A stretch of 23,163 nucleotides of DNA, taken from positions 1 through 23,163 of IMG/VR virus record IMGVR_UViG_3300028196_000095; one strand, 5' to 3'. The translations under genes were made by a program, and so were the position numbers. The stretch is from a virus. The notes below the pieces were generated by a model. That model did no database searches, was not told where the DNA came from, and was given only the letters and a program-made list of their open reading frames with translations. This document shows positions 3,406-21,920 of this stretch, piece after piece. The number at the start of each line of letters is the position of its first letter. The stretch's first letter is position 1.

Positions 3406-4320
3406 ATGGTATCATTAGTTAAACTACTAAAAGAAATCTTAGTAACAGAAGGTGGAAATGTATTCAGAACACCAGAATATGAGACTAAATCAATCCCTCT
3501 AGATAACATACTACCAACTACAACTAGATTTGTTGAAGATTTAAGTAGAATATTCCCTGGTAAAGCTTCCACATTCAAAGAACTATTAAATAAGGATAAT
3601 TGGTTAGGTTCAACTGGTAGAAAACCTGAATCTGGGGATGTTGATATAGCATACCCCATTGAAAACTTTTTTATTAATGGAAAACCTGATATTAAAGGAT
3701 GGGGTGTTGATGAAAATGAGTTCAATGATTTATTTGAAAAAATTCAAAAACGATCACGAACAGCTACAGTTGAGCAATCTCAAGTGAAAGCATTAGTAAT
3801 GTTAATTGTCAAGAAGGTTAATAGTATAGGTGGTAATTTATTTTCTAGTGATAAAGCATCCAGTGCAGGTTCAATTCACTTCTCTTACCCTCAATTCTCC
3901 CCTAACGGAGAAGAATTAGAAGTAAGGGCACAATTTGATTTGGATGTTGGGGATATTGATTGGTTAAAATTTAGATTTAATTCTGATTTACCAAAAGATG
4001 ACCCTCAAATTAAAGGATTACATAGAGGGCAGTTAATGTTAGCTATGTTTGCTACTACTGGATATACCTACAAAAGTGGTAAAGGATTTATACGTAAATC
4101 AACACGTGAAACAATCGCTGATAAACCTAAAGAAGCGATGGAGGTGTTCAATCAAGAATATAAACCAAACCAACCTTTAACTTTAGAAATAATTAATAGT
4201 TATAGTAAACTAATGGATTATGTTAAAAATAATCTAAAACCTGAAGATAAAGAAACTACACTAAAAATGTTTAGAGAAGCTCTACGAAGAGCAGATTCTT
4301 ACATCCCAGATAATATTTAA
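3406..4320 (+). CDS. Nucleotidyltransferase-fold protein with capsid-targeting-like leader
   Basis: A 304-residue protein. WLGSTGRKPESGDVDIAYP (residues 66-82) has the polymerase-beta nucleotidyltransferase signature: G68-S69, then D78-V-D80-I. A third acidic strand is probably in the AQFDLDVGD stretch. The substrate cannot be read from sequence; candidates are tRNA, protein (AMPylation) or an antibiotic-like small molecule. The first 15 residues form a short amphipathic helix ending in LVTE followed by GG. That matches the T4 capsid-targeting leader and prohead-protease site (L/I-x-E, cut after E), so the mature enzyme may start at G16. The next gene also opens with a nucleotidyltransferase-like domain, suggesting duplication. 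A promoter-like motif lies just upstream, and no Shine-Dalgarno sequence is present. Confidence 0.65.
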   Translation: MVSLVKLLKEILVTEGGNVFRTPEYETKSIPLDNILPTTTRFVEDLSRIFPGKASTFKELLNKDNWLGSTGRKPESGDVDIAYPIENFFINGKPDIKGWGVDENEFNDLFEKIQKRSRTATVEQSQVKALVMLIVKKVNSIGGNLFSSDKASSAGSIHFSYPQFSPNGEELEVRAQFDLDVGDIDWLKFRFNSDLPKDDPQIKGLHRGQLMLAMFATTGYTYKSGKGFIRKSTRETIADKPKEAMEVFNQEYKPNQPLTLEIINSYSKLMDYVKNNLKPEDKETTLKMFREALRRADSYIPDNI

Positions 4321-4325
4321 TTAAT

Positions 4326-7300
4326 ATGAGTGGAGCTGCAGGTGGTGTGACCATCAATAAAGAGGATTTAAAAGCAACAATTAGAGATTATAGAGAAACT
4401 GTTTTAAAACCATTAAATCTTGATACATCATACAACATAACAGGTGTACGACGTAGACCTGAAAAAATGGTTTTTGGGGATATTGATATTGTTTTATCCT
4501 TTCCTCAAGGGGAAAAGAAACAACTTAAAAAGGATTTTGCTAATCACTTAGCACAGATAGAGAAAATCCCTACTATGCCTCATAAGAAAAATTTAAAATA
4601 CTTTATACATGGCTCTATAGTTACCACTTTATACCCTATAGTAGGTAAAGAAGATCAATTCATCCAAATAGATAATATAATAACAGCTTCAGAGGATGAA
4701 GGTAAGTTTACATATAATATGCTAGACCTACCAGCACAAGAACAAGGATTAGCCTTAGGATTAGCTAAAACTATATTTACTGAATTAGACCCAAATCAAG
4801 TAAAACAATTATTCAAAAATTTAAATATTCCAGAGCCAATTGAAACTCCTAATGAGGGTGAGGAATATGATTTTAATTTAAATACCTCTGAATTATCTTT
4901 AAGAATAGTCCCTATAGGCAAAAATGGGGGGAGAGAAATATGGAAGTCATCTAACCCCTCAAATATTAAAACTTTACTCAAGTCATTAGATATTGATATT
5001 GAAAAAGATAAATTTGAAACTATATTACAAAAGATTAAGGGTTTTAAAAATAGAAGATCAATAGAAAGACTTAAAGGAATGTTTGCTAGAAACATCAGGG
5101 TAGGAAGCGCTGAAGTTGGGAGGGATAAAGGTATTGCTAAACAGCAATCCTTAGATAAAGTAGCAATGTTAGAAGAGAAATATGGTTTATTAGCTATATC
5201 ATTAATCAAACCTTTTATTACAGAAGGAGAGGACTCACAAAGTATAGCCTTAATACCAGGAGCTTTCAAACCACCTCATAAAGATCATTTATCTAGAATA
5301 AATGCTGCTGCTAAATTAGTTGATAAAGCCATCATAATAATCTCCCCATTAGACAGAATTAAACAAAATCAAATTCCAATTTCAGCAAAGCAATCCCTTA
5401 ATATATGGAATTTATATAAAAATAAAGGAGTCTTAAATAGTAATGTTGAATTTATCATTAGCCCCCATAACTCACCTGTAAAAGTATCTTGGGATATAGT
5501 ACGAGATAATCCAAATAATGAGTATTTAGTAGTATATGGTAAAGGAGAAAATAAGAGGTGGATGGGAATTGAAGATAAATTTCCTAATGTAAAAACTAGT
5601 GATTTAGGTTTAGATTTAAATCTATCATCTAGTGGTTTAAGAGCAGCTCTCCTCAATAATGATGATATTTCCAAATGGCTCCCTAATGGGATTTCTTCTA
5701 AAGAATATCAACAAGCATTAAATACATCCTCTAATATTAATGAAGCATCAAATAATAAATTCACTTCTAAATCATTAATATCTAATTTATTAGAACAAGA
5801 AAATAATATTAAGGCATTTTTTGGTGGTAGTTTTAAACCTCCTACAAAAGGTCATTTTTTAGCAGTTAAAAAAATTTTAGAAAATTATCCTGAAATAGAC
5901 ACTTTACATATTGTTGTTGGTGGTGGGTTAAGAGATAACATTTCTCAAGATGAATCAAATTCAATATGGGAAATGTATAAAAAATACCTCCCTTTAGATA
6001 AAGTAGAAATAATTAACTCAAAAACCTCCCCATTCAAATATGTTAAGGATTATATAAAAACTAATACAGACCATAAATCTTACATACTTCTAGGCTCTAA
6101 AGCAGATGATGATCAGGATATGGATACTTTCCTCCAACAAAAAAACTTATTTGATCAATATGGTGATCATGTTGAAGTTAAAAATATAGTTATTAAAGAT
6201 AAAATTAGTGGGGCTAAAGCTAGAGAAGCTTCTAAATCATCAAAAGAACAATTCTTCCAATTCCTCCCAGAAGAATTAACTAATGAAGAAAAACAAACAA
6301 TCTTTAACTACATCCAAACATCAATCCAGGAAGGAGAAGTTAAAGAAATTAAATTAAATAATCTTCTAACTGATAAAATAAAACTTAAGTTAGAATTTTT
6401 CTTAAAAGCTCTAAAAAAAGAAAACTCAAAAACTAAACAAGCCTTCTCAAAAATAATTCATTCATCCCGTGGAGAGATTGAGTTAAGTGATGAAGATAAA
6501 AAGGAAATTGGGGATCAAATGAAGAATGCTCTTAAATTAGCTGGTTTAACTGCGATTACTCTCGTCCCAGGAGGTGTAATAGCAGCTATTCTAATTAAAA
6601 TATTTAAAGCTGAAAAATATATCACCCCCACCTCATTTCAAAAAGATAAAATAGAAGAAAAAGAATTGATAAAAGAAGAAGGAGATGCTAATATTTTTGA
6701 TTATGATAAGCATATCTCATCTCTATCAGAGTTTATGTTAGATTCTAATCTTAATATCAATCCTTTACCTGAAGTTGAATTTATAAATGATGATGTTGAG
6801 AATGCAAATGATTTTTTTGGTAAAACCGCTTATTACATCCCACAACAAAATAAAATAGTTTTATATACTTTAAACCGTCATCCTAAGGATGTTATGAGAT
6901 CATTTGCTCACGAAATGATCCACCACATGCAAAATTGTGAAGATAGGTTAGGTGAAATAACTACCCAAAATACAAATGAAGATGATCATTTGGAAAATAT
7001 TGAGAGGGAAGCCTATGAGAAGGGTAATATATGTTTTAGAAACTGGACTGATACTTTAACTGAATCAATTTTAACTGAATCAATTTTAGGTGATAAAATC
7101 ATATGCGATAATTGTGGTTGGAGCTGGAATATAGTAGATGGTGGAGATGATTTATTTATATGTCATAAATGTGGACATGATAATTCTCCATTAAATGAAG
7201 CTAAACCATATAAACACAAACATGGTTTTGATGATAAATTAGGTAAAGATCCATTTGGTATAAGTCAATTTGCTAGAGAAATAGCTGAAGAAGTTATAAG

Positions 7301-7985
7301 CGAAGGTCGATACGATGCTTTAGCTAATAAATTATCATCAATTGCATTTGAAGCATTTAAAGATATTCATGATAGAGGGGATAAAGAAGGCTCATTTGAA
7401 TTTAGAGTAGACCATCCAGATGAAGAGCATGATATTCCATCTAAAGATTTTTACTTTGATTTTGAAGGTGTAGTAGAAATTACAGATGATGAATATGGAG
7501 TAGATGGTGGAGCAAATGCAGGATTTGATAAAGATGGAAATGAAATAACCCCACTACTATCAGTTAAACTCAAAATACCCCAAAACCCAGACTGGCAAGA
7601 AATATCATTTGATTTAAAAGATGTTGTTAGGCATGAATTAGAACATTTAACTCAAGACGGTGATAATCTTAAAGGCGGGGTAGTAAGTGATGATCCCAAA
7701 CTAAAAAGACCTAGTAAATATATGAAGGATGATCAATTAATAAGAGATTTAATTGACGCCGACCTATTGTCTAAATCACAATACTTCAAATTAAAAAAAG
7801 AAGTAGATGCGATGCTTCAAGGTTTATATTTTAAAGCTAAAAAATCTAAACGTCCATTTAGCAATGTTATAGATGACTATTTAAATATATTCCTTGATCA
7901 AGACACTATTACACAAGAAGAAAAAGAAGAAATATTAAAAATTTGGAGAACCCGAGCATCTTCATTATCTTTACCTAAATTCTAA
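4326..7985 (+). CDS. Giant multidomain protein: NTase, two HxGH transferases, two HExxH proteases; probable polyprotein
   Basis: A 1219-residue ORF without internal stops. Domains in order: nucleotidyltransferase-like (GDIDIVL, D52 and D54); an adenylyl/cytidylyltransferase-like domain with GAFKPPHKDH at 312-321 and a late SSSGLR motif; a second one with GGSFKPPTKGH at 500-510 and ISGAKAR at 627-633; a LETM1-like hydrophobic helix around 735-762; a zinc peptidase with HEMIH at 862-866 and a likely third ligand E895; a four-Cys zinc ribbon (C927, C930, C946, C949); and a second HExxH peptidase (HELEH, 1103-1107). Most junctions carry [L/I]-x-E plus a small residue: ITE|G 300, IQE|G 669, LTE|S 913 and 918, LNE|A 958, ISE|G 993. 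The weaker LLEQE (492) and IKEEG (785) sit at two others. This is the T4 prohead-protease pattern, so the ORF looks like a polyprotein cut in the capsid. The transferases could act in NAD or nucleotide metabolism; substrates are unknown. Confidence 0.8.
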   Translation: MSGAAGGVTINKEDLKATIRDYRETVLKPLNLDTSYNITGVRRRPEKMVFGDIDIVLSFPQGEKKQLKKDFANHLAQIEKIPTMPHKKNLKYFIHGSIVTTLYPIVGKEDQFIQIDNIITASEDEGKFTYNMLDLPAQEQGLALGLAKTIFTELDPNQVKQLFKNLNIPEPIETPNEGEEYDFNLNTSELSLRIVPIGKNGGREIWKSSNPSNIKTLLKSLDIDIEKDKFETILQKIKGFKNRRSIERLKGMFARNIRVGSAEVGRDKGIAKQQSLDKVAMLEEKYGLLAISLIKPFITEGEDSQSIALIPGAFKPPHKDHLSRINAAAKLVDKAIIIISPLDRIKQNQIPISAKQSLNIWNLYKNKGVLNSNVEFIISPHNSPVKVSWDIVRDNPNNEYLVVYGKGENKRWMGIEDKFPNVKTSDLGLDLNLSSSGLRAALLNNDDISKWLPNGISSKEYQQALNTSSNINEASNNKFTSKSLISNLLEQENNIKAFFGGSFKPPTKGHFLAVKKILENYPEIDTLHIVVGGGLRDNISQDESNSIWEMYKKYLPLDKVEIINSKTSPFKYVKDYIKTNTDHKSYILLGSKADDDQDMDTFLQQKNLFDQYGDHVEVKNIVIKDKISGAKAREASKSSKEQFFQFLPEELTNEEKQTIFNYIQTSIQEGEVKEIKLNNLLTDKIKLKLEFFLKALKKENSKTKQAFSKIIHSSRGEIELSDEDKKEIGDQMKNALKLAGLTAITLVPGGVIAAILIKIFKAEKYITPTSFQKDKIEEKELIKEEGDANIFDYDKHISSLSEFMLDSNLNINPLPEVEFINDDVENANDFFGKTAYYIPQQNKIVLYTLNRHPKDVMRSFAHEMIHHMQNCEDRLGEITTQNTNEDDHLENIEREAYEKGNICFRNWTDTLTESILTESILGDKIICDNCGWSWNIVDGGDDLFICHKCGHDNSPLNEAKPYKHKHGFDDKLGKDPFGISQFAREIAEEVISEGRYDALANKLSSIAFEAFKDIHDRGDKEGSFEFRVDHPDEEHDIPSKDFYFDFEGVVEITDDEYGVDGGANAGFDKDGNEITPLLSVKLKIPQNPDWQEISFDLKDVVRHELEHLTQDGDNLKGGVVSDDPKLKRPSKYMKDDQLIRDLIDADLLSKSQYFKLKKEVDAMLQGLYFKAKKSKRPFSNVIDDYLNIFLDQDTITQEEKEEILKIWRTRASSLSLPKF
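7056..7085 (+). repeat. 15-bp perfect tandem duplication encoding LTESI twice
   Basis: TTAACTGAATCAATT occurs twice back to back inside the giant ORF and gives LTESILTESI at residues 911-920. It duplicates exactly the putative protease site between the first metallopeptidase domain and the zinc ribbon. Confidence 0.9.
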
Positions 7986-8609: not shown

Positions 8610-8873
8610 ATGAAAGATAACTTTGATCAACATAAATGGTTTAAAAATCAATATTTAAGTGAGGGAGACCTTAATAACGTTGATTACCTAGATGGTATGG
8701 ATGTTGAATCTGCTATCAAAACCTATATAACTAAATCCTTTAAAGCTATTGAACAATATCAAAACAATTTATCCCCTATGGGAGATGAAGTTGAGATTGA
8801 TTATAGTGAAGTAAAAAAACATTTAAGAGAAGCTTTTAATGCTTTTGATAGAGTTGATTATTCTTCTCTATAA
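8610..8873 (+). CDS. Small protein with MKDNFD-type leader, possible capsid cargo
   Basis: An 87-residue, mostly helical acidic protein of unknown function. The first 18 residues (MKDNFDQHKWFKNQYLSE) are followed by G19, so YLSE|G fits the T4 prohead-protease site. The leader is shared with the next gene (16 of the first 18 bases identical) and with the gene at 12858, while the remaining sequences are unrelated. This points to a movable targeting leader on different cargos. The mature part has no motif that I recognise. A promoter-like motif sits directly upstream. Confidence 0.65.
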   Translation: MKDNFDQHKWFKNQYLSEGDLNNVDYLDGMDVESAIKTYITKSFKAIEQYQNNLSPMGDEVEIDYSEVKKHLREAFNAFDRVDYSSL

Positions 8874-8907: not shown

Positions 8908-9339
8908 ATGAAAGATAATTTCGATTTAAAAAAATTCTTAAAAGAGAATAAAACATTAGAAAACTCTAATAAGTATCTAGCTAACGCTATCACAGAAGAT
9001 GACAAGAAAGATGCTCTAAGAACTAAAGTTAGAGAGATGATCATTACAGAAATGGAGGATATGGATTACCCTCTTGGAGAAGATGATATCTATGAAGCTA
9101 AAGATGATGAGGGTGAAGTTGAAACTGAAGAAACTGAAGAAACTGAAGAGGATGTAGATGTAGTTGATGCTGAAGATATGCCTGAAGATATGCCTGAAGA
9201 TGATTTATCTGATGAAGGTGATATAATGGGTCATTTAGAAGCAGCTATGGAAGCCGCTCGTTCTCTTGGAGATGAAAAACTCATGGATCAATTAGGTAAT
9301 ACTATTACTTTTTACACTAGACAACATATAGCTAAATAA
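8908..9339 (+). CDS. Acidic protein with MKDNFD-type leader
   Basis: A 143-residue, strongly acidic protein. The leader MKDNFDLKKFLKENK repeats that of the gene before it; FLKE|N is the candidate processing site at residue 13. The middle is a low-complexity acidic region built from short repeats (TEE and EDMP units). The C-terminus (residues ~110-143) is a predicted helix ending TFYTRQHIAK. Acidic proteins of this kind occur as head-core or internal proteins in T4-like phages, but the exact role is unknown. The start follows an A/T-only spacer without a Shine-Dalgarno sequence. Confidence 0.65.
   Translation: MKDNFDLKKFLKENKTLENSNKYLANAITEDDKKDALRTKVREMIITEMEDMDYPLGEDDIYEAKDDEGEVETEETEETEEDVDVVDAEDMPEDMPEDDLSDEGDIMGHLEAAMEAARSLGDEKLMDQLGNTITFYTRQHIAK
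9121..9147 (+). repeat. 9-bp tandem repeat, three copies (GAAACTGAA)
   Basis: Three perfect copies in the acidic region of the 8908 gene, encoding ETE units. Probably arose by replication slippage. Confidence 0.9.
9172..9195 (+). repeat. 12-bp tandem repeat, two copies (GAAGATATGCCT)
   Basis: Two perfect copies encoding EDMP twice, in the same acidic region and 24 bases after the 9-bp repeat. Confidence 0.9.
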
Positions 9340-10018: not shown

Positions 10019-11160
10019 TGGATGTTTACAAAAAATTTTTATATAGTATAGCTTATAAGTTTCCTAAAGGATACCCTGATATGGATGATCCTAAAGATAA
10101 AATTATACTTGAAAATGAATTAAAAAAGTTAGGGTTTAATTTATATGAAAATGAATTTAATGCTTTAACATTCTATGACCTCAAAAAACATACAGATGGG
10201 CATAGATTCTTAAACCTAATTAAGAAAATAGAAGAAAAACTTCCATTCAATATCATAGGAGGTGAATCTACCCCTCTAAAATTCATCACCCCAGAATATT
10301 CTGAAGCTTTTAAAACCCTTGATCCCCAAGAAATTAAAAAATTAACTAAGGGTCCCATAAATTCATTTCCTTTTTTCATAGATGATGGGGGTAAAAAATA
10401 TAGTATTTCAAATCTTCTTAAAGATACATACTTTGGAGGTAAAGGAAAAGGCTCATCTACTGTAGTTGAAGATTATAACCTCCAACTACTAAACACCCAG
10501 ATTCTTAAATTAGTAGAAGAAAATGGAGGGCCTATTAATATTAAAGTGGGAGGGAATATTTATAAAAATATTATCAAAGCTGAAACTCAACCTGGAGTCC
10601 CTAAATCAGATTTTAATTTAATTAATAATGAAGATACTCCTGTAGTATTTATTTCCCATAAAAAAGCAGGAGGAAAAGGGGCAAGTGCTGATGATTTTAT
10701 TAGATGGAGTGGATATACTATGTATAAAGACCACCCTGAAGTTAAAGAATTTAACCAAGCTTTAAATCAATGGGTTGAGGAAAATGACCCTGAGGGGGGC
10801 CTTCCACCATCTACTAGATTTATCTCTAAAATAAAGGATGAGGGGTTGATTAGGAAGTTAATTTATGGCCCTAAATATGGTGGGGGGTTTAGTAAAGATA
10901 ATGTAAATGTGATTTCACAAGGTAAAATTACTCTTAAACCTATAGAAAATAATACATTTGAACTCACTTCAGAATATGAATTAATTCCACCTGCACTTCC
11001 AATTGATGGGTACACACCATACTTATCATCCGCATATAGAGGAGATCGAAATATGTTTGGTATTAAGAATAATGAAGCTATAGTGATGACAAAATCCACA
11101 GTTATGAGATCATCATCAATATATGAGTTAGAGGGGGGTAAATTTAAAAAAATAAAATGA
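10018..11160 (+). CDS. Conserved phage protein of unknown function
   Basis: A 380-residue protein. The central stretch has PGVPKSDFNLIN (D198) followed by VVFISHKKAGG (K215), then GASADDFIRWSGY; this signature recurs, from memory, in unnamed proteins of marine T4-like phages. The spacing of D198 and K215 faintly recalls a PD-(D/E)XK nuclease core, but the residue two before Lys is Ser, not Glu or Asp, so I do not claim nuclease activity. The C-terminal third is beta-rich (residues ~290-375). No leader or signal peptide is seen. It overlaps the next gene by four bases (ATGA). Confidence 0.65.
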   Translation: MDVYKKFLYSIAYKFPKGYPDMDDPKDKIILENELKKLGFNLYENEFNALTFYDLKKHTDGHRFLNLIKKIEEKLPFNIIGGESTPLKFITPEYSEAFKTLDPQEIKKLTKGPINSFPFFIDDGGKKYSISNLLKDTYFGGKGKGSSTVVEDYNLQLLNTQILKLVEENGGPINIKVGGNIYKNIIKAETQPGVPKSDFNLINNEDTPVVFISHKKAGGKGASADDFIRWSGYTMYKDHPEVKEFNQALNQWVEENDPEGGLPPSTRFISKIKDEGLIRKLIYGPKYGGGFSKDNVNVISQGKITLKPIENNTFELTSEYELIPPALPIDGYTPYLSSAYRGDRNMFGIKNNEAIVMTKSTVMRSSSIYELEGGKFKKIK

Positions 11161-12377
11161 AAAAATCAGAGTTAAAACAGCTTATTATATCTAAAATAAC
11201 AAAAACCCTTAATGAATCTAAAAAGAAGGATTGTAACTGCGGTTGTAATACTTGTGAGAATGTAGGTAATGAAGGTGTGTTATTAAATGAAAGTGTAGCA
11301 CCTAAACAAATACTATCGGAAAATCTGCAATATCACGTGGATAATCAACTCCCACTAACTGAAAACACATTCCGTTATGGCTCTGAATCTTTCTTTAATT
11401 TATGGGCAGAAGCTCGCTCTTTATATTTACGTGAAATTATTCATGTAAATGAAGATGATAAAGAAATTTTAACTGAAACAGATTTAGGTCATTATGGCAT
11501 GTTTGAAGGTAAAAAAGTGCCTTTAGATTTTCCTATGGAAATAACTGAAGCATATTACACTGCCATAGCTAATTTAGGAAATGGAAAAACCAAAGAAAAT
11601 CTTGATTCATTTGAGGAAGTTCAAGACTTCATGGATAAAATGATTAAAAGACATGCTATTTCTGTTGAAGTAACTAAATTCTCCCAAGAAGGAAAATCAC
11701 AAACCCTTAAATATAATTGGGATGGGGAAAAATGGGTAAAGGTAAATACAACATCCATAAACGAACAAATGGACATATATGATGATATTGCAAATTCAGA
11801 ATTTGGAATGGATTATGATCAATTAGATTCAAATGAGCAAGAATGGGTTCGTGATGAGATAGATAATATGCCTATGAATGAAATTACAGATGGAAATTTT
11901 GTTAAAGGTATTGAATTATTAAGATCTACCCTATCAAAAGAAGGTGGTGCTGCTGGTTTAGAGCCATTAGTAAAAGCATTATCTGGTTTAGGATTTAGTA
12001 AAGATGAAGTTGTTGATTTAATTAAAAATAATATTAATATTAAACAACATAGAGATGGTGATTATATTTTATTACCATTAGAAGAAGCTGCTAAGAAAAA
12101 TACTAAAAAATTAAATAAACCAATGCGTGACTCATCTGGAGGTAAAGCATATAAGGTTTATGTTAAGGATCCTAAAACTAAAAAAATTAAAACAGTTAGA
12201 TTTGGGTCTGGAGGTTTAAGAGCAAAGATTAATGATAAAAAAGCAAGAAATGCTTTTGCTGCTCGTCATAAATGTGCTCAAAAGAAAGATAAAACAAAAG
12301 CAGGGTATTGGTCATGCCGATTACCACGATATGCTAAATTATTAGGTTTAAAATCCTCATTCTCAGGATTTTGGTAA
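11157..12377 (+). CDS. Multidomain leader-bearing phage protein with Cys cluster and Cys/His C-terminal domain
   Basis: A 406-residue modular protein. The leader MKKSELKQLIISKITKTLNE is followed by S21, so LNE|S is a candidate prohead-protease site. A tight cysteine cluster follows (C26, C28, C30, C33), bounded by two more possible sites, LLNE|S at 45 and ILSE at 55. Residues ~57-125 form a block starting YHVDNQLPLTENTFRYGSES that I associate with other marine phage proteins. The C-terminus (~320-406) has KAYKVYVKDP, ARHKCAQKKD and GYWSCRLPRYAK, a small basic Cys/His domain. Metal or nucleic-acid binding is plausible. The whole looks like cargo domains strung behind a targeting leader. It overlaps the upstream gene by four bases. 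Confidence 0.68.
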   Translation: MKKSELKQLIISKITKTLNESKKKDCNCGCNTCENVGNEGVLLNESVAPKQILSENLQYHVDNQLPLTENTFRYGSESFFNLWAEARSLYLREIIHVNEDDKEILTETDLGHYGMFEGKKVPLDFPMEITEAYYTAIANLGNGKTKENLDSFEEVQDFMDKMIKRHAISVEVTKFSQEGKSQTLKYNWDGEKWVKVNTTSINEQMDIYDDIANSEFGMDYDQLDSNEQEWVRDEIDNMPMNEITDGNFVKGIELLRSTLSKEGGAAGLEPLVKALSGLGFSKDEVVDLIKNNINIKQHRDGDYILLPLEEAAKKNTKKLNKPMRDSSGGKAYKVYVKDPKTKKIKTVRFGSGGLRAKINDKKARNAFAARHKCAQKKDKTKAGYWSCRLPRYAKLLGLKSSFSGFW

Positions 12378-12378
12378 A

Positions 12379-12855
12379 ATGGATAGAATAAGAAAAATAA
12401 TACAAGAAATCATCTCAGAAAAGAAAAAGAAGAGAGATAGATGTTTACGCATCGCAGATCGTAAATTTGACAAACCCTCTGCTTATAAATCAGGAGCTGT
12501 AGTTAGATGTAGAAAAGGTAATATCTGGAAAGGTATTAAAGAAACAGATAACCCACAATCAGGTAAAGCTGCTCCTTATGGTTCAGGATATTCTAAACTT
12601 AAAAATATAATAGAAGAAATCATCCTTGAAGACGAATCACTCCATAAATGGTTTAAAAGACAAGGTGCTCCTGGTAAAGGAGGAGGATGGGTTGACTGTA
12701 ACACCGGAACTAAAAATAAAAAAACAGGCAAGATGAAATATAAGTCTTGTGGTAGAAAAAAAGGAGAAAAACGTGCAAAATATCCTTCATGTAGACCAAC
12801 ACCTTCAAAATGTAAAGACAAAGGTAAAGGTAAAACATGGGGTAAAACAAAATAA
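12379..12855 (+). CDS. Two-domain basic protein with duplicated leader; C-terminal DUF5872-like
   Basis: A 158-residue, strongly basic, Cys-containing protein made of two units. Unit 1 is a leader (MDRIRKIIQEIISE) plus a domain DRCLRIADRKFDKPSAYKSG with AVVRCRKG. Unit 2 starts with an internal copy of the leader, KNIIEEIILE (75-84), followed by LHKWFKRQGAPGKGGGWVDC, SCGRKKGEKRAKYPSCRPTP and a GKGKTWGKTK end, which matches DUF5872 as I remember it. Both leaders end in [I/L]-I-x-E. The arrangement suggests a two-cargo precursor cut after E14 and E84. The basic mature parts may bind nucleic acid. It starts 1 base after the previous stop. Confidence 0.72.
   Translation: MDRIRKIIQEIISEKKKKRDRCLRIADRKFDKPSAYKSGAVVRCRKGNIWKGIKETDNPQSGKAAPYGSGYSKLKNIIEEIILEDESLHKWFKRQGAPGKGGGWVDCNTGTKNKKTGKMKYKSCGRKKGEKRAKYPSCRPTPSKCKDKGKGKTWGKTK
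12391..12420 (+). repeat. First copy of a duplicated leader segment
   Basis: Codes for RKIIQEIISE. It is identical in 24 of 30 bases, without gaps, to 12601-12630. Confidence 0.8.
12601..12630 (+). repeat. Second, internal copy of the duplicated leader segment
   Basis: Codes for KNIIEEIILE between the two domains of the same protein. The six residues I, I, E, I, I, E align with those in the N-terminal copy. Confidence 0.8.
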
Positions 12856-12857
12856 CT

Positions 12858-13295
12858 ATGGATAACTTTAATTTAAAAAAATATTTAGCTGAAGGTAAAC
12901 TTTATGAAGCAGCTATGGCTTGTCCTATAGCAACTCAAGACTTAGAAGTAAATACTAAAAATAGAGATGCTTCAATTAAAGCAGATTATATTAAATATGG
13001 TCCATTAAATGTAGATGAACCCGGTGATTATTGGCTTGATTTAGCTGAATATTGGGAAACAACAGAAGAAGCAGCTAAAAAAACACTATGTGGTAATTGT
13101 GTTGCTTTTGACATCTCACCTAGAATGGATGAATGTATGCCTGGTGAAGTATCAGATGACAGTGGTAGATTAGGTTACTGTTGGATGCATAATTTCAAAT
13201 GTCATTCAGCTAGAACTTGTAGAACTTGGGCTAAAGGTGGTCCAATCGTAGAAGATAGTGTATCATACGATTGGCAAGAAAGAAAAGAAAATTGA
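12858..13295 (+). CDS. Cysteine-rich leader-bearing protein, possible metal or Fe-S binding
   Basis: A 145-residue protein. Its leader MDNFNLKKYLAE followed by G13 is the third version of the MKDNFD-type leader (compare genes at 8610 and 8908), and YLAE|G is close to the T4 internal-protein site IAE|A. The mature part has six regularly placed cysteines near the C-terminus: C78-G-N-C81, C93, C108, C115 and C121, in sequences such as LGYCWMHNFKCHSARTC. This could hold an iron-sulphur cluster (a HiPIP-like pattern) or zinc; sequence alone does not decide. It is preceded by a 2-base gap and overlaps the next gene. Confidence 0.68.
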   Translation: MDNFNLKKYLAEGKLYEAAMACPIATQDLEVNTKNRDASIKADYIKYGPLNVDEPGDYWLDLAEYWETTEEAAKKTLCGNCVAFDISPRMDECMPGEVSDDSGRLGYCWMHNFKCHSARTCRTWAKGGPIVEDSVSYDWQERKEN

Positions 13296-13685: not shown

Positions 13686-15035
13686 ATGGAGAAAAAAAAG
13701 ATAGTGATTGTAGGTGCAGGCGTAGCCGGTGTAAATGCTGCTACTAAACTAATAGACAATGGATACCCAGGGGAATTAATTACTATTATTGATATGGGTA
13801 AAGACCCATATAGGAGAGAATATTCTGAAGTAATGGAAGGCTTCTTAGGAGCAGGTGGTTGGTCTGATGGTAAATTAACTTACCACACATCAATTGGGGG
13901 CCAATTATCTAAATATTGCGGTGAAGAAAAAGCAATGTCATTATTTGATGAAGTAATTGCAAATTTCAAACGCTTTCATCCTAAACCAGAGGAAGTACAA
14001 TGTTCAGATCCTCAAGCAGAACCAGATTTTATTAAACCATATTTTGGATTAAGATTATTCCCAGTGTGGCACGTTGGTACTGATTATTTACACGAGATAG
14101 GTAAAAATTGGTATGACTTTTTAGTTCAAGGTGGTGTTGAATTTCATTGGGAAACTAAAGTAACTAATATTAGTTTTGATGCCCAAGAACTATGGACAGA
14201 TAAATCAACATCAGATAACGATTGGATTGGATATGACACCCTAATATTTGGTGTAGGCAAATCAGGTATTGACTTTGGTAAACAATTAGCCGAACAATAT
14301 GATTTACCAACAGAACCAAAAGCAGTACAAATTGGTGTTAGATTTGAGGCACCCCAAGAACATTTCCAAAAACTAATAGATATAAGTTATGATTTTAAAC
14401 TTTATAGAAAATTTGAAGACAAAGGCGTTTCACTTCGCTCATTTTGTACAAACAATAATGCCGCTTATGTTGCTGCGGAACACACTTATGGCGATGTAAG
14501 TTATAATGGTCATGCTAAAAAAGATGAATCATATAGAAATAATATGACTAATTTTGGTATATTAATGGAAATTAAAGATATAGATAAACCTTTTGATTGG
14601 TCTAGAGAGGCAGTAAAAAAGTTACAAGTTGATAGTGTCGGAACATATTTTTCACCTTCACAAAGAACACCATCTAAAACATCAGAAGGTGATTATGTAG
14701 GATGTAAAATAGTAAACAGTATTGATGTGTTATATGAAGCAATAGGAGATTATGCTTTGTATATTGAGGATTTTATTGAGGATATGAAGAAAGTATTTCC
14801 AACATTAGGTAATGATTGGGGTATTTATATGCCTGAAGTTAAATACTTAAGCCCAGAACCGTTAGTAAATTATAAAGATTTATCATTAACTAAATATCCT
14901 AATGTACATTTTGTTGGGGATGCTTTATCTGCTCGAGGTATTACGGTTAGTGGAGCTCAAGCGATTTACACCGTTGAAGGTATTTTAAATGATATAGATA
15001 ATTCATATAATTGGGATAATACTATACAACCATAA
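13686..15035 (+). CDS. FAD-dependent oxidoreductase/dehydrogenase (COG2509-like)
   Basis: A 449-residue flavoprotein. The N-terminus has the Rossmann dinucleotide motif IVIVGAGVAG, with G10-x-G12-x-x-G15. GFLGAGGWSDGKLTYHTSIG (~55-75) matches the 'GGAGTFSDGKL' segment of uncharacterised FAD-dependent dehydrogenases. A late FVGDALSARGITVSGAQAIY motif is the second FAD-contacting segment. Its substrate is unknown. It is cytosolic, with no signal peptide. The gene is isolated between an intrinsic terminator plus promoter-like motif upstream and another such motif downstream, as expected for a 'moron', an independently transcribed acquired gene. No leader or prohead-protease site is seen at its N-terminus, so it is probably made and used in the infected cell. 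Confidence 0.85.
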   Translation: MEKKKIVIVGAGVAGVNAATKLIDNGYPGELITIIDMGKDPYRREYSEVMEGFLGAGGWSDGKLTYHTSIGGQLSKYCGEEKAMSLFDEVIANFKRFHPKPEEVQCSDPQAEPDFIKPYFGLRLFPVWHVGTDYLHEIGKNWYDFLVQGGVEFHWETKVTNISFDAQELWTDKSTSDNDWIGYDTLIFGVGKSGIDFGKQLAEQYDLPTEPKAVQIGVRFEAPQEHFQKLIDISYDFKLYRKFEDKGVSLRSFCTNNNAAYVAAEHTYGDVSYNGHAKKDESYRNNMTNFGILMEIKDIDKPFDWSREAVKKLQVDSVGTYFSPSQRTPSKTSEGDYVGCKIVNSIDVLYEAIGDYALYIEDFIEDMKKVFPTLGNDWGIYMPEVKYLSPEPLVNYKDLSLTKYPNVHFVGDALSARGITVSGAQAIYTVEGILNDIDNSYNWDNTIQP

Positions 15036-15574: not shown

Positions 15575-16066
15575 ATGGCACGAATAGTATTTCTTAGTTG
15601 TACTAAATCTAAATTTGATAAAAGATCAGAGGCTCAAGAACTATACTCAGCCTCCCCTATGTTTAAAAAGACTTTGGAGTATGGTAAATCTCTTAAACCT
15701 GAAAAGATGTTTATCCTATCAGCAAAACATCATTTAACACCCTTAACAATGATGTTAGAGCCTTACGATTTAACTCTAAAAGATATGAATAAGGCTGAAA
15801 AAGATGCCTGGGGTGAGAAAACTATAAGCCAAATAAAAGCTAATGGAATGAATCCTGAAACTGATACTTTTATATTTTTAGCAGGAACTGAATATATAAA
15901 ACCCTTAACCAAATACATACCAGAATCTAATGTAGAGGAACCTATGAGGGGTAAACGATTTGGGGAAAGATTGCAATGGTTAAATCAACAAATTGCAAAA
16001 ATTGGTGAAGTTCTTAAACGAATTAAAAACATGATATATGAAGCTTACAAACGAAAATCTAAATAA
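15575..16066 (+). CDS. DUF6884-like protein
   Basis: A 163-residue protein with the features I associate with DUF6884: an N-terminal ARIVFLSCTKSKFDKRSEAQ strand and Cys-Thr-Lys-Ser-Lys motif, ELYSASPMFKK, then MFILSAKHHLTPL and EPYDLTLKDM. Proteins of this family occur in phages and bacteria; their reaction is not established to my knowledge. The fold is likely alpha/beta with the conserved Cys near the N-terminus. It starts 5 bases after the previous stop and overlaps the next gene by 29 bases, so it is part of the same transcript. Confidence 0.75.
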   Translation: MARIVFLSCTKSKFDKRSEAQELYSASPMFKKTLEYGKSLKPEKMFILSAKHHLTPLTMMLEPYDLTLKDMNKAEKDAWGEKTISQIKANGMNPETDTFIFLAGTEYIKPLTKYIPESNVEEPMRGKRFGERLQWLNQQIAKIGEVLKRIKNMIYEAYKRKSK

Positions 16067-16274
16067 ATATATTAATCTATATCTAAATGATGTAGATGAT
16101 TACGGTATAGAAACTGAATTCCTTTTAGCAGAATCAGTATTATCACCAATCAAAGGATTATTAACTGAATCAAAGGGTGATGGTCGTCTTATATTAGAAT
16201 CCCAATTAGAGGATTCTTCAACATATGAAAGGGAAATTATAGAAGATTTTATGCTTTATGTAGAAAGTATATAA
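16038..16274 (+). CDS. Small protein with repeated L-x-E-S sites
   Basis: A 78-residue acidic protein starting MKLTNENLNKYINLYLNDVD. Within 30 residues it carries LLAE|S, LLTE|S and ILE|S, three close matches to the prohead-protease pattern. Such density suggests a leader-like or scaffold-type protein that is degraded or trimmed in the prohead, as T4 core proteins are. It overlaps the upstream gene by 29 bases in another frame; no other in-frame start lies nearby. Without homologues to compare, its reality rests on length, context and the motif pattern. Confidence 0.55.
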   Translation: MKLTNENLNKYINLYLNDVDDYGIETEFLLAESVLSPIKGLLTESKGDGRLILESQLEDSSTYEREIIEDFMLYVESI

Positions 16275-18417: not shown

Positions 18418-20010
18418 ATGAAAAAAGATATAAAACATATAATCCGGGAGGAATTTGTAAAATGTGCCCAAGATCCTGTACATTTTATGAAAAAATATTG
18501 TTATATCCAGCACCCTCAAAGGGGTAGAATACAATTTAGCTTATATCCATTCCAAGAAAAAGTATTAACTTTATTCCAAGAAAACCCTTACAATATAGTT
18601 CTTAAATCCCGACAATTAGGACTCTCAACTTTAAGTGCGGGTTATGCTTTATGGTTAATGATTTTCCATGAGAATAAAAACGTATTAGCTTTAGCGACTA
18701 CTCAAGCAACAGCTCGTAACTTAGTAGCAAAGGTTCAATTTATGTTTGAGAATTTACCTTCATGGTTGAAAGTAGATTCAATGGAAAATAATAAATTATC
18801 TCTAAGATTAAAAAATGGATCAAAAATACAAGCAAAATCATCTAACAGTGACGCCGCACGTTCAGAAGCTGTTTCATTATTGATTATTGATGAGGCTGCT
18901 TTTATTGATAATATTAAAGAAACTTGGGGTGCCGCTCAACAAACACTAGCTACTGGTGGGGGTGCTATTATTCTATCAACACCTTATGGTACTGGAAATT
19001 GGTTTCATCAAATGTGGGAAGGTGCTGAAGGTGGGATAGATGATGGTAATGATTTCCTACCAATTAAACTCCCATGGTTTGTACACCCAGAAAGAGATCA
19101 AGCTTGGAGAGATAGACAAGATATTTTATTAGGTGACCCAAGATTAGCTGCCCAAGAATGTGATTGTGATTTTAGCACATCAGGTGATGTTGTATTTTAT
19201 AATGAGTTTATGGAGTTTTATAAACAAACTTATATAGTTGAACCTTTAGAAAAACGTGGTGCTGATAGAAATTTATGGATATGGGAACCCGCTGATTACT
19301 CTAGAGGGTATGCTATAATAGCAGATGTAGCTCGGGGAGATAGTAAAGATTTCTCTGCTTTTCATATATTAGATATAGAAAATAATACCCAAGTAGGGGA
19401 ATATAAAGGAAAGATAGACACAAAAGAATTTGGTCATTTACTAGTTGGTATTGCTACTGAATATAACAATGCCTTGCTGGTCGTTGAAAATGCAAGTATA
19501 GGATGGAATACAATCCAAACAATTATAGATAGAGGATACCAGAATTTATACTATTCTCCAAAAGGAGGAAACGTAACTTCAAATTCTTATTTTAGTGAAT
19601 ATGTAGATACTTCAAAAATGACAGCTGGATTTACCATGTCTTCAAGAACAAGACCTATTTGTATAAATAAATTCCAAGAATCCATAGCAGATAAGGGAGT
19701 GATTATTCACTCAAGCCGATTACTATCAGAAATGAAAACCTTCATATGGAAAAATGGTAGAGCTGAGGCCCAACAAGGATACAATGATGATTTAGTAATG
19801 TCTTTTAGTATAGGGCAATATATTAGAGATACGGCTTTTAAATATAATAAAAATGGTATAGATTTAACTAAAAGTATGTTAAATAATACCACAAGTACTC
19901 AATATAAATATTTAGGTGGCTATTCTGCTAATGCAGATAAAGACCCATTTACAATAGATAACCCATACTCAGGGGGTGGGGAAGACATAAGATGGCTTCT
20001 CAATAAATAA
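18418..20010 (+). CDS. Terminase large subunit (T4 gp17-like DNA-packaging ATPase/nuclease)
   Basis: A 530-residue packaging motor subunit: the ATPase pumps DNA into the prohead and the nuclease cuts concatemers. The ATPase domain has the variant Walker A SRQLGLST at residues 64-71. The usual GKT lysine is replaced, as in other marine T4-like terminases. Walker B is LLIIDEAAF with D158-E159, and ILSTPYGTGNW is the coupling motif. The RNase-H-like nuclease domain has IADVARGDSKDFS (D303), VVENASIGW (E357) and YNDDLVMS (D457-D458). The N-terminus MKKDIKHIIREEF resembles the leaders of the cargo-like genes but is followed by the terminase signature CAQDPVHFMKKYCYIQHP. The portal gene follows after 8 bases. 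Confidence 0.95.
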   Translation: MKKDIKHIIREEFVKCAQDPVHFMKKYCYIQHPQRGRIQFSLYPFQEKVLTLFQENPYNIVLKSRQLGLSTLSAGYALWLMIFHENKNVLALATTQATARNLVAKVQFMFENLPSWLKVDSMENNKLSLRLKNGSKIQAKSSNSDAARSEAVSLLIIDEAAFIDNIKETWGAAQQTLATGGGAIILSTPYGTGNWFHQMWEGAEGGIDDGNDFLPIKLPWFVHPERDQAWRDRQDILLGDPRLAAQECDCDFSTSGDVVFYNEFMEFYKQTYIVEPLEKRGADRNLWIWEPADYSRGYAIIADVARGDSKDFSAFHILDIENNTQVGEYKGKIDTKEFGHLLVGIATEYNNALLVVENASIGWNTIQTIIDRGYQNLYYSPKGGNVTSNSYFSEYVDTSKMTAGFTMSSRTRPICINKFQESIADKGVIIHSSRLLSEMKTFIWKNGRAEAQQGYNDDLVMSFSIGQYIRDTAFKYNKNGIDLTKSMLNNTTSTQYKYLGGYSANADKDPFTIDNPYSGGGEDIRWLLNK

Positions 20011-20018
20011 AAGAAAAG

Positions 20019-21920
20019 ATGGCAGATAAAGGATTATTTCCAAGATTAAAAAGATTATTTTCAACCGATGTAGTTATTCGTAATGCTGGTGGAAACCAAC
20101 TTCGAGTAATGGATATTAATAAAATCCAACAATCCGGAGAATTTCAAAATAACTCTCTAGTAGATAGGTTCAATAGAATTTACACTAATTCATCCACCTC
20201 ACTCTATGGACAGCAAAATGCATTTAATTACCAAACCCTTCGTCCTCAACTCTACTCAGAGTATGATGCTATGGATACTGATGCTATTATAGCTTCTGCT
20301 CTTGATATTTTAGCTGATGAGTCTACTTTAAAAAATGACATGGGTGAGGTATTGCAAATTAGAAGTAGTGATGAAGATATCCAAAAAATCCTATATAATT
20401 TATTTTATGATGTTTTAAATATTGAATTCAACTTATGGCCTTGGATCCGTAATCTATGTAAATATGGAGATTTTTTCTTAAAATTAGAAATTGCTGAAAA
20501 ATTTGGAGTATATAATGTTATACCTTATACTGCATATCACATTGAAAGACAAGAAGGATATGACCAAAACAACCCATCAACAATTAGATTCCGATTTGAT
20601 CCAGCAGGTGTATCTGCTTCAAGTTATGGGTATTATCAAATGCCTGGTAATGAAAAGGATGGAAACGCTATATTTTTTGATAATTATGAAATGGCTCATT
20701 TTAGGTTATTAACAGATACTAACTTCCTCCCATATGGTAGATCTTATATTGAACCTGCTCGTAAGTTATTTAAACAATATACATTAATGGAGGATGCTAT
20801 GTTAATTCATAGAATTGTAAGAGCTCCTGAAAAACGTGTTTTTTATGTAAATGTTGGAAACATTGCTCCAACAGAAGTTGAAAACTTCATGCAAAAAACA
20901 ATATCAAAAATGAAACGTACTCCTTATATTGACCAAGACACAGGTGAATATAATTTAAAATACAACATGCAGAATATGCTTGAAGATTTTTACATCCCAA
21001 CTCGAGGGAATGACTCTTCAACTAAAATTGATACTTTAGGAGGTTTACAATATGATGGAATCCAAGATGTAGAGTATTTAAGAGATAAATTATTTGCAGC
21101 TTTAAAAGTTCCAAAAGCCTTCTTAGGATATGAGAAAGATTTGGAAGGTAAAGCAACTTTAGCTGCTGAAGATATTAGATTTGCTCGTACTATAGAGCGA
21201 ATACAAAGAATAGTAATATCAGAACTTAATAATATAGCCTTAATACACTTATACACTCAGGGGTATAGAAATGAAAATTTAACTAATTTTGAACTATCAT
21301 TAACAACTCCTTCAATTATATATGATCAAGAAAGAATTGCTTTAATGAAAGAAAAAGTAGATTTAGCTTCCCAAATGATGGATAATAAGCTACTTCCTAC
21401 AGATTATATTTACGAAAATATCTTCCATTTAAGTGAGGATCAATATGATGAATATAGAGGACTTATCAGAGAAGATGCTAAACGTAACTTTAGAATTACC
21501 CAAATTGAAAATGAAGGAAATGATCCATCAGTAACAGGACAATCATATGGGACACCTCATGATTTAGCTTCACTATACGGAAAAGAAAGAATGCATGGAG
21601 AACCAGGTAATGTTCCTGATGGGTATGATGAGAAAAAGCCTCTAGGTAGACCTAAAGAAAAAGTATCTAATATTAATAAGCAAGATAATGCTTTCGGGAA
21701 AGATAGACTCGGTAAATCTGGTATGAAAAAAGATGGTGAATCATCCAATCCCTTAAAACATAAATATAATGGTAACTCCCCATTAGCTTTAGAGACAAGA
21801 CATTTATCAAAATCTCAAGAAGATATGCTAAATAAAATGTCAGTCAATAAAAAGCAAATGATCTTTGAAAAAGAGGAGGAAAAATTGTCTTTACTAGATG
21901 ATAAGCAAATACGTAGATAA
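20019..21920 (+). CDS. Portal vertex protein (T4 gp20-like)
   Basis: A 633-residue protein that builds the ring through which DNA enters and leaves the head. Recognisable T4-like portal segments include LRPQLYSEYDAMDTDAIIAS near residue 70, CKYGDFFLKLEI, YGRSYIEPARKLFKQ, RIVRAPEKRVFYVNVGN and FLGYEKDLEGKATLA. It is longer than T4 gp20 (about 524 residues); the extra length is a charged, Lys/Asp/Gly-rich C-terminal extension after ~residue 510. Its place directly after the terminase supports the assignment. No Shine-Dalgarno sequence precedes the ATG, only an A-rich spacer. Confidence 0.92.
   Translation: MADKGLFPRLKRLFSTDVVIRNAGGNQLRVMDINKIQQSGEFQNNSLVDRFNRIYTNSSTSLYGQQNAFNYQTLRPQLYSEYDAMDTDAIIASALDILADESTLKNDMGEVLQIRSSDEDIQKILYNLFYDVLNIEFNLWPWIRNLCKYGDFFLKLEIAEKFGVYNVIPYTAYHIERQEGYDQNNPSTIRFRFDPAGVSASSYGYYQMPGNEKDGNAIFFDNYEMAHFRLLTDTNFLPYGRSYIEPARKLFKQYTLMEDAMLIHRIVRAPEKRVFYVNVGNIAPTEVENFMQKTISKMKRTPYIDQDTGEYNLKYNMQNMLEDFYIPTRGNDSSTKIDTLGGLQYDGIQDVEYLRDKLFAALKVPKAFLGYEKDLEGKATLAAEDIRFARTIERIQRIVISELNNIALIHLYTQGYRNENLTNFELSLTTPSIIYDQERIALMKEKVDLASQMMDNKLLPTDYIYENIFHLSEDQYDEYRGLIREDAKRNFRITQIENEGNDPSVTGQSYGTPHDLASLYGKERMHGEPGNVPDGYDEKKPLGRPKEKVSNINKQDNAFGKDRLGKSGMKKDGESSNPLKHKYNGNSPLALETRHLSKSQEDMLNKMSVNKKQMIFEKEEEKLSLLDDKQIRR

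Follow-up and report, generated by a model that had tools for sequence, protein, structure and literature searches.

The ORF at 4326-7985 (+ strand), a single reading frame from ATG to stop within the window (the whole stretch of 23,163 nucleotides analyzed here), encodes a 1219-residue modular polyprotein of a marine T4-like phage with up to seven enzyme-like modules, and we put the chance at about three in four that it is a head-packaged cargo polyprotein whose linkers are cut by the phage's own Peptidase_S77 prohead protease and whose products are delivered. Candidate cut sites lie in its interdomain linkers and are avoided inside modules, the modules are shuffled among homologues, and the same motif occurs in the classic substrates of the protease of relatives and in tag-like N-termini. 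By analogy with T4, the precursor would be packaged, cut and injected, and each module is likewise a putative rather than an established enzyme.

Modular architecture and genomic setting

Two AF2 models, of residues 1-690 (pLDDT 88) and 640-1219 (pLDDT 77), both resolve into separately folded modules, listed here as D1 to D7 beneath the ORF itself.

4326..7985, + strand: ORF of 1219 aa, putative modular polyprotein
4326..5180, + strand: D1 (residues 1-285), Pol-beta-type nucleotidyltransferase; AF2 pLDDT about 90; conserved in homologues
5232..5735, + strand: D2 (residues 303-470), nucleotidylyltransferase, HKDH variant; PF01467, E 3.3e-7; NadR/CoaD fold
5805..6275, + strand: D3 (residues 494-650), HxGH nucleotidylyltransferase; second PF01467 stretch; supported by homologues and AF2
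6378..6623, + strand: D4 (residues 685-766), helical, with a hydrophobic helix; conserved in homologues
6693..7055, + strand: D5 (residues 790-910), HExxH (HEMIH) putative metallopeptidase; near-universal in homologues
7083..7190, + strand: D6 (residues 920-955), zinc ribbon by sequence (CxxC...CxxC); position changes among homologues
7305..7982, + strand: D7 (residues 994-1219), HELEH putative metallopeptidase; first residues GRYD; supported by homologues

A preliminary description, made from the sequence alone, had given this ORF its 1219 residues at 4326-7985 and had read it as a nucleotidyltransferase, two HxGH transferases, a LETM1-like hydrophobic helix, two HExxH peptidases and a zinc ribbon. 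The reading frame holds, as do the zinc ribbon, whose cysteine pairs are present by sequence, and the nucleotidyltransferase, for which Foldseek returns DNA polymerase beta/lambda (E ~5e-6). Two nucleotidylyltransferase domains are indeed there, matching NadR/CoaD adenylyltransferases in Foldseek and PF01467 in Pfam, but the first copy reads HKDH. Neither Pfam, PHROGs nor Foldseek supports a LETM1 identity for D4, which has no match in the first two, and that label is dropped. Both HExxH motifs stand, but the zincin fold is unconfirmed: the C-terminal half, with D5 and D7, has no match at E<0.001 in a PDB fold search, the HExxH domains reach only sub-threshold matches (Peptidase_M91, E 0.03; neurolysin, E 0.03), and a BFVD fold search of the same half returns uncultured phage proteins only.

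A T4-type terminase at 18418 and a portal at 20019, both downstream of the polyprotein ORF, mark the window as a T4-like fragment. The orthologue is gp183 of the 160-kb Flavobacterium phage immuto, which grows on Flavobacterium sp. LMO8 (907 aa, QQO91862.1, annotated as NMN adenylyltransferase); it has the same gene order, modules D1-D2-D5-D7 and sites at 286 and 565; it carries fewer modules than the 1219-residue protein, and its record does not describe a polyprotein. Among other isolated phages, HxGH relatives were found only in immuto, Agrobacterium phage Atu_ph07 (weak) and one faecal phage, and Sinorhizobium phage phiM12 and Methylophilales phage Melnitz share one cassette only.

Candidate cut sites at the junctions

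The motif [LI]xE followed by G, S, A or N occurs eight times, after E300, E473, E519, E669, E913, E918, E958 and E993. The preliminary description had named six of these (300, 669, 913, 918, 958 and 993), each at the exact residue, and had pointed to weaker matches near 492 and 785, which correspond to LxE at 490 and 784 followed by Q/E and are thus weaker as claimed; E473 is a further junction site that it did not name. The linkers are as follows, with a slash at the candidate scissile bond.

5181..5231, + strand: D1-D2 linker, FITE300/GEDS; from AF2 pLDDT
5736..5804, + strand: D2-D3 linker, INE473/ASNN and the weaker LLE490/QEN; pLDDT<50 at 469-489
6276..6377, + strand: D3-D4 linker/helix, IQE669/GEVK; low pLDDT at 671-674
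6624..6692, + strand: D4-D5 linker, weak LxE at 778 and 784; pLDDT<50 at 767-789
7056..7082, + strand: D5-D6 linker, TLTE913/SILTE918/S
7191..7304, + strand: D6-D7 linker, PLNE958/AKPY ... DPFGISQFAREIAEEVISE993/G; pLDDT<50 at 955-992

The AF2 models fall below pLDDT 50 only at about residues 285-302, 469-489, 671-674, 767-789, 914-921, 955-992 and 1118-1121, and seven of the eight sites lie inside or within two residues of these segments (binomial p 2e-6), although the segments cover no more than 12% of the protein and hold 22% of all its Glu. The earlier proposal that the sites occupy interdomain linkers is therefore borne out by structure prediction for all except E519, the sole match inside a folded domain (D3), which lies within a helix and probably matches by chance. 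E669 also sits in a predicted helix. Judged by the predicted structures, the placement of the sites in the 1219-residue protein is not chance.

Their number is another matter. Against shuffled sequence, [LI]xE[GSAN] is found 8 times with 4.2 expected (p 0.055), an excess barely above chance, and [LI]xE[GSA] 7 times with 3.1 expected (p 0.04); the pattern [LI][TSA]E[GSAN], chosen post hoc, gives 4 with 0.7 expected (p 0.0025). We reject the motif count in this single protein as evidence, since it is too weak.

Two of the linkers hold further peptides of note. SLIKPFITE, the stretch before the E300 bond, is similar to the tag MNSLVKSLIQPILE/A with which single-gene homologues start, and the D6-D7 linker carries a recurrent PFGLxQYAREL peptide.

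The motif across homologues

One scan yielded 80 loci with relatives, and 42 non-redundant proteins made up the main test; scanning again with a distantly related member added a held-out set of 24 further non-redundant proteins, none of them used before. Expected counts came from shuffling linkers for linkers and modules for modules, with composition kept. Among the 42 homologues, [LI]xE[GSA] occurs 74 times in linkers, with 19.9+-4.3 expected (3.7-fold enriched), and 12 times in modules, with 45.9+-6.5 expected (about 4-fold depleted), whereas control motifs with D, K or Q in place of E, or with altered spacing, show no linker enrichment. The motif ranks first among 494 patterns of the same form (z 12.2, runner-up 7.6). 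Because the homologues are related, such z-scores overstate significance, and the control motifs and a sign test measure it more fairly; by the sign test, 32 of the 35 informative proteins are denser in the motif in linkers and 3 in modules (p 4e-7). In the held-out proteins [LI]xE[GSAN] again favors linkers (25 vs 9.5 expected) over modules (14 vs 27), with a weaker in-module depletion (0.52-0.63). The prospect that the motif is no more frequent at linkers than inside domains is countered by the linker enrichment, the module depletion and the held-out trend.

A strict site is present at 59 of 102 junctions (58%), where 20.7 are expected. The suggestion that homologues carry sites at their junctions thus stands in substance, but coverage is incomplete, the strict motif being absent at the other 43 and a few homologues having no site at all; some non-strict junctions have M/V at P3 (e.g., VMAE/GRYD) or Q/E at P1'. 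P1' is mainly G, A, S or N, and the codons at the sites are variable, which indicates that the constraint acts on protein. In immuto proteins outside the late cluster the motif is not depleted, with an observed/expected ratio of 0.93, and the ratio is 1.17 in large early proteins.

These counts bear on the simplest alternative, an ordinary multidomain enzyme with flexible Glu/Leu-rich linkers in which the motif merely follows composition. The near-chance count in the single protein is what such an enzyme would give, but the linker enrichment survives shuffles that keep composition and is not shared by the control motifs, and we regard this alternative, already disfavored on those grounds, as very improbable.

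Protease and classic substrates

The immuto protease, gp201, belongs to Peptidase_S77, the gp21 family (E 9e-35), and its propeptides end in the same way, ...KGLLTE/SK at the N-terminal one and ...SLNE/GK at the C-terminal one; the early part of the immuto capsid protein carries LLE/G, MILE/N and VSE/A, and proteins of the scaffold region have several sites. The [LI]xE motif is thus common to the polyprotein linkers and to the relatives' protease, scaffold and capsid protein. An S77 protease with such sites is found in immuto and in relatives reached via 8 of the 12 polyprotein-carrying contigs, and judging by these relatives the present phage, whose contig ends before that locus, presumably encodes one as well.

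Could the embedded HExxH domains instead cut the linkers themselves? Iyer et al. (2017; PMC5512222) propose zincin self-processing for polyvalent proteins, and D5 is present in nearly all homologues. That ubiquity is, however, biased by retrieval, because one search peptide was HEMIHHMQ, and the motif also marks tags on genes that lack an HExxH domain, as well as the S77 protease, the scaffold and the capsid proteins; self-cutting seems improbable to us. Still less credible, indeed scarcely so, is that DNA recombination exchanges cassettes at the junction repeats, with the peptide as a by-product: modules do change position, but the motif recurs in protease and capsid proteins, and we rejected a DNA-level motif on the variable codons at the sites.

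In the cargo-polyprotein reading that we prefer, the precursor would enter the prohead together with the scaffold core, and the gp21-family (Peptidase_S77) prohead protease would cut after [L/I]-x-E in the interdomain linkers, giving separate nucleotidyl- and nucleotidylyltransferase, metallopeptidase-like and zinc-ribbon proteins. The released modules would stay in the head and presumably be ejected with the DNA. Points against this reading are the protein's own untagged N-terminus, the 43 junctions without a strict motif, the helical setting of E669 and the weaker held-out depletion. No virion proteomics for immuto or phiM12 was found in the literature searched.

Tagged neighbors and module fusion

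A wider pattern, absent from the preliminary description, is that genes around the polyprotein carry site-ended tags and that its modules fuse and split. Within the window, three neighbors start with such tags or tag-like peptides, and one further ORF has many sites.

8610..8873, + strand: neighbor gene with tag-like N-terminus MKDNFDQHKWFKNQYLSE/G
8908..9339, + strand: neighbor gene with tag MKDNFDLKKFLKE/N, of the FDLKKFLxE tag family
11157..12377, + strand: candidate for a second polyprotein with many sites, of 406 aa; strict sites number 6 where 1.27 are expected, p 0.0016
12858..13295, + strand: neighbor gene with tag MDNFNLKKYLAE/GKLYE/A

In immuto, N-terminal tags of at most 30 residues that end in a site occur on 13 of the 31 genes at 100.8-128.5 kb but on only 13 of the other 178 genes (p 4e-6), with controls flat. 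These short tags on many neighbors resemble T4 capsid-targeting sequences. One tag, MENFDLKKFLVE/NKLT, of the form M(E/D)NFDLKKFLVE/NKLT, recurs at different loci, where more than 20 ORFs bear it. The bodies of other proteins in the immuto cargo region show no site enrichment (observed/expected 1.0-1.1), and having many sites is therefore no general trait of that region.

Among homologues, profiles of D1 to D7 reveal modules gained, lost and reordered, with extra cassettes in the same slots, among them an HFxERVNDERN module, a 5'-nucleotidase and a third HExxH domain. An HxGH module at the N-terminus often begins with the MNSLVKSLIQPILE/A tag; where it is fused behind D1, the junction reads SLIxPxLxE/, and in another branch the module starts directly and untagged with MIALYPG. 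The 5'-nucleotidase (NT5C) stands alone as a gene in more than 30 loci, where its start is mostly tag-like, and is fused C-terminally in L011, L014 and L018. In L079, two tagged genes that immuto has side by side as separate genes are joined in frame. A whole tag is likewise found internally, flanked by a site at either end, in L055, L059, L073 and L081 (LQE/GAFDLRKFLAE/NKIT). Since tagged single genes occur beside fused forms in which internal tags are kept, the comparison suggests that the polyprotein grew via fusion of tagged cargo genes.

Alternatively, the LxE peptides could be scaffold-binding tags left over from fusion, uncut or partly cut, on a protein packaged and injected as one chain; fused genes do retain tag peptides, and the N4 virion RNA polymerase is packaged uncut (PMC5512222). 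Avoidance of the motif inside modules and the preference at P1 (E) and P1' (G, A, S, N) favor cutting over binding alone, and we consider the single-chain explanation unlikely.

Relation to known systems

T4 gp21 cuts after short Glu-ended motifs and removes capsid-targeting sequences, and it cuts Alt at ITE6 and LTE619 (PMC9026906, PMC5694885). IPI-III and Alt carry a short N-terminal tag that gp21 removes after Glu, Alt being cut also internally, at LTE619 (PMC9026906, PMC5694885, PMC7411985); T4 ejection proteins yield one mature domain per gene, whereas here up to seven modules are parted by sites in one gene. The 1219-residue ORF lacks the N-terminal tag of T4-type CTS ejection proteins (it starts MSGAAGG, and its tag-like peptides are internal), although many homologues with D2 or D3 first, and the neighbors, do have one; we therefore say that it works like a CTS protein without classing it as one. 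In phiKZ and SPN3US, the gp21-related gp175/gp245 cut head proteins after x-E motifs (S/A-x-E, A-x-E), several times per protein, but what is taken off there are propeptides, with 13 of the 14 sites in SPN3US at the N-terminus, and no enzymes are parted (PMC10052503, PMC9026906).

The nearest concept is that of the polyvalent proteins of phages and conjugative elements, which, in the text of Iyer et al. (2017; PMC5512222) available to us, likewise combine several unrelated enzymatic domains per chain, including HExxH peptidase-like and Pol-beta nucleotidyltransferase domains, are encoded near virion genes, are presumed to be injected, and are likened to RNA-virus polyproteins. The present protein has at least two unrelated domains in one chain by Pfam, homologues, AF2 and Foldseek, and its gene lies near virion/late genes, as the matching immuto gene order also has it. 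The difference is in processing, for which that text holds metallopeptidases within the chain, or an assemblin-type peptidase at its C-terminus, responsible, describing no prohead-protease junction sites. In our search, with most subscription journals outside it, no phage polyprotein was reported to be split into enzymes by a prohead protease, and we claim no priority.

On balance, we lean toward a broader view in which the protein is a counterpart of RNA-virus polyproteins in tailed phages: an effector precursor built from cassettes as tagged cargo genes fused in frame again and again. The capsid maturation protease would free its modules within the prohead, and selection would purge cut sites that arise inside modules.

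Implications

If the proposal is true, tailed phages would make polyproteins and process them with the capsid protease, and one gene could load several enzymes at a fixed ratio, freed only in the virion. The 'polyvalent' phage proteins would gain a concrete processing mechanism in this T4-like group and a suggested origin, the fusion of tagged cargo genes. With Flavobacterium phage immuto, a relative in culture, the proposal can be put to a direct test. Finally, [LI]xE/[GSAN] tags and linkers, together with in-module depletion, would constitute a sequence rule that predicts packaged effectors of uncultured phages, and tags and sites would let the head-packaged proteome of such phages be read from sequence.

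Tagged neighbours and a second multi-site ORF

First, the 406-aa ORF at window 11157-12377 is a candidate second polyprotein, in which six strict sites ([LI]xE|[GSAN]-type motifs, putatively cut by the prohead protease) were found against 1.27 expected (p 0.0016). Its stretch QYHVDNQLPLTENTFRYGSESFF is similar to the beginning of a separate gene at 101270 in the related Flavobacterium phage immuto. The same motif closes a short N-terminal peptide of the ORFs at window 8610, 8908, 9346, 11157, 12858 and 16038, near the main ORF (4326-7985), and the FDLKKFLxE tag family is among these N-termini; the tag-bearing neighbours are probably further capsid-targeted proteins. In the 78-aa ORF at 16038-16274 the strict motif occurs three times, as LLAE|S, LLTE|S and LILE|S.

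Immediately upstream of the main ORF, the ORF at 3406-4320 has the N-terminus MVSLVKLLKEILVTE|GG and a nucleotidyltransferase-like motif, GSTGRKPESGDVDIAYP, and gave no above-threshold match in Pfam. The 449-aa ORF at 13686-15035, surrounded by late genes, begins with IVIVGAGVAGVNAATKL, like an FAD/NAD(P)-dependent oxidoreductase.

Modules and linkers among relatives

Second, an FDLRKFLxE tag recurs as a second, internal copy in proteins of the homologous loci L055, L059, L073, L079 and L081; that of L079 comprises two tagged genes, adjacent in immuto, fused in frame. The HFxERVNDERN cassette, an extra module of polyprotein homologues, lies at the C-terminus of a 602-aa protein in Sinorhizobium phiM12 (L094, 4543-6351), and stands alone in Methylophilales phage Melnitz (L095, 7905-8354).

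Finally, the peptides DPFGLNQYAREL and APYGSGYxxLxE recur in many loci, both between differing modules and inside small separate ORFs, and perhaps serve in scaffold binding. In the window, such peptides fall within:

7248-7304, recurrent peptides DPFGLNQYAREL / APYGSGYxxLxE
12379-12855, recurrent peptides DPFGLNQYAREL / APYGSGYxxLxE
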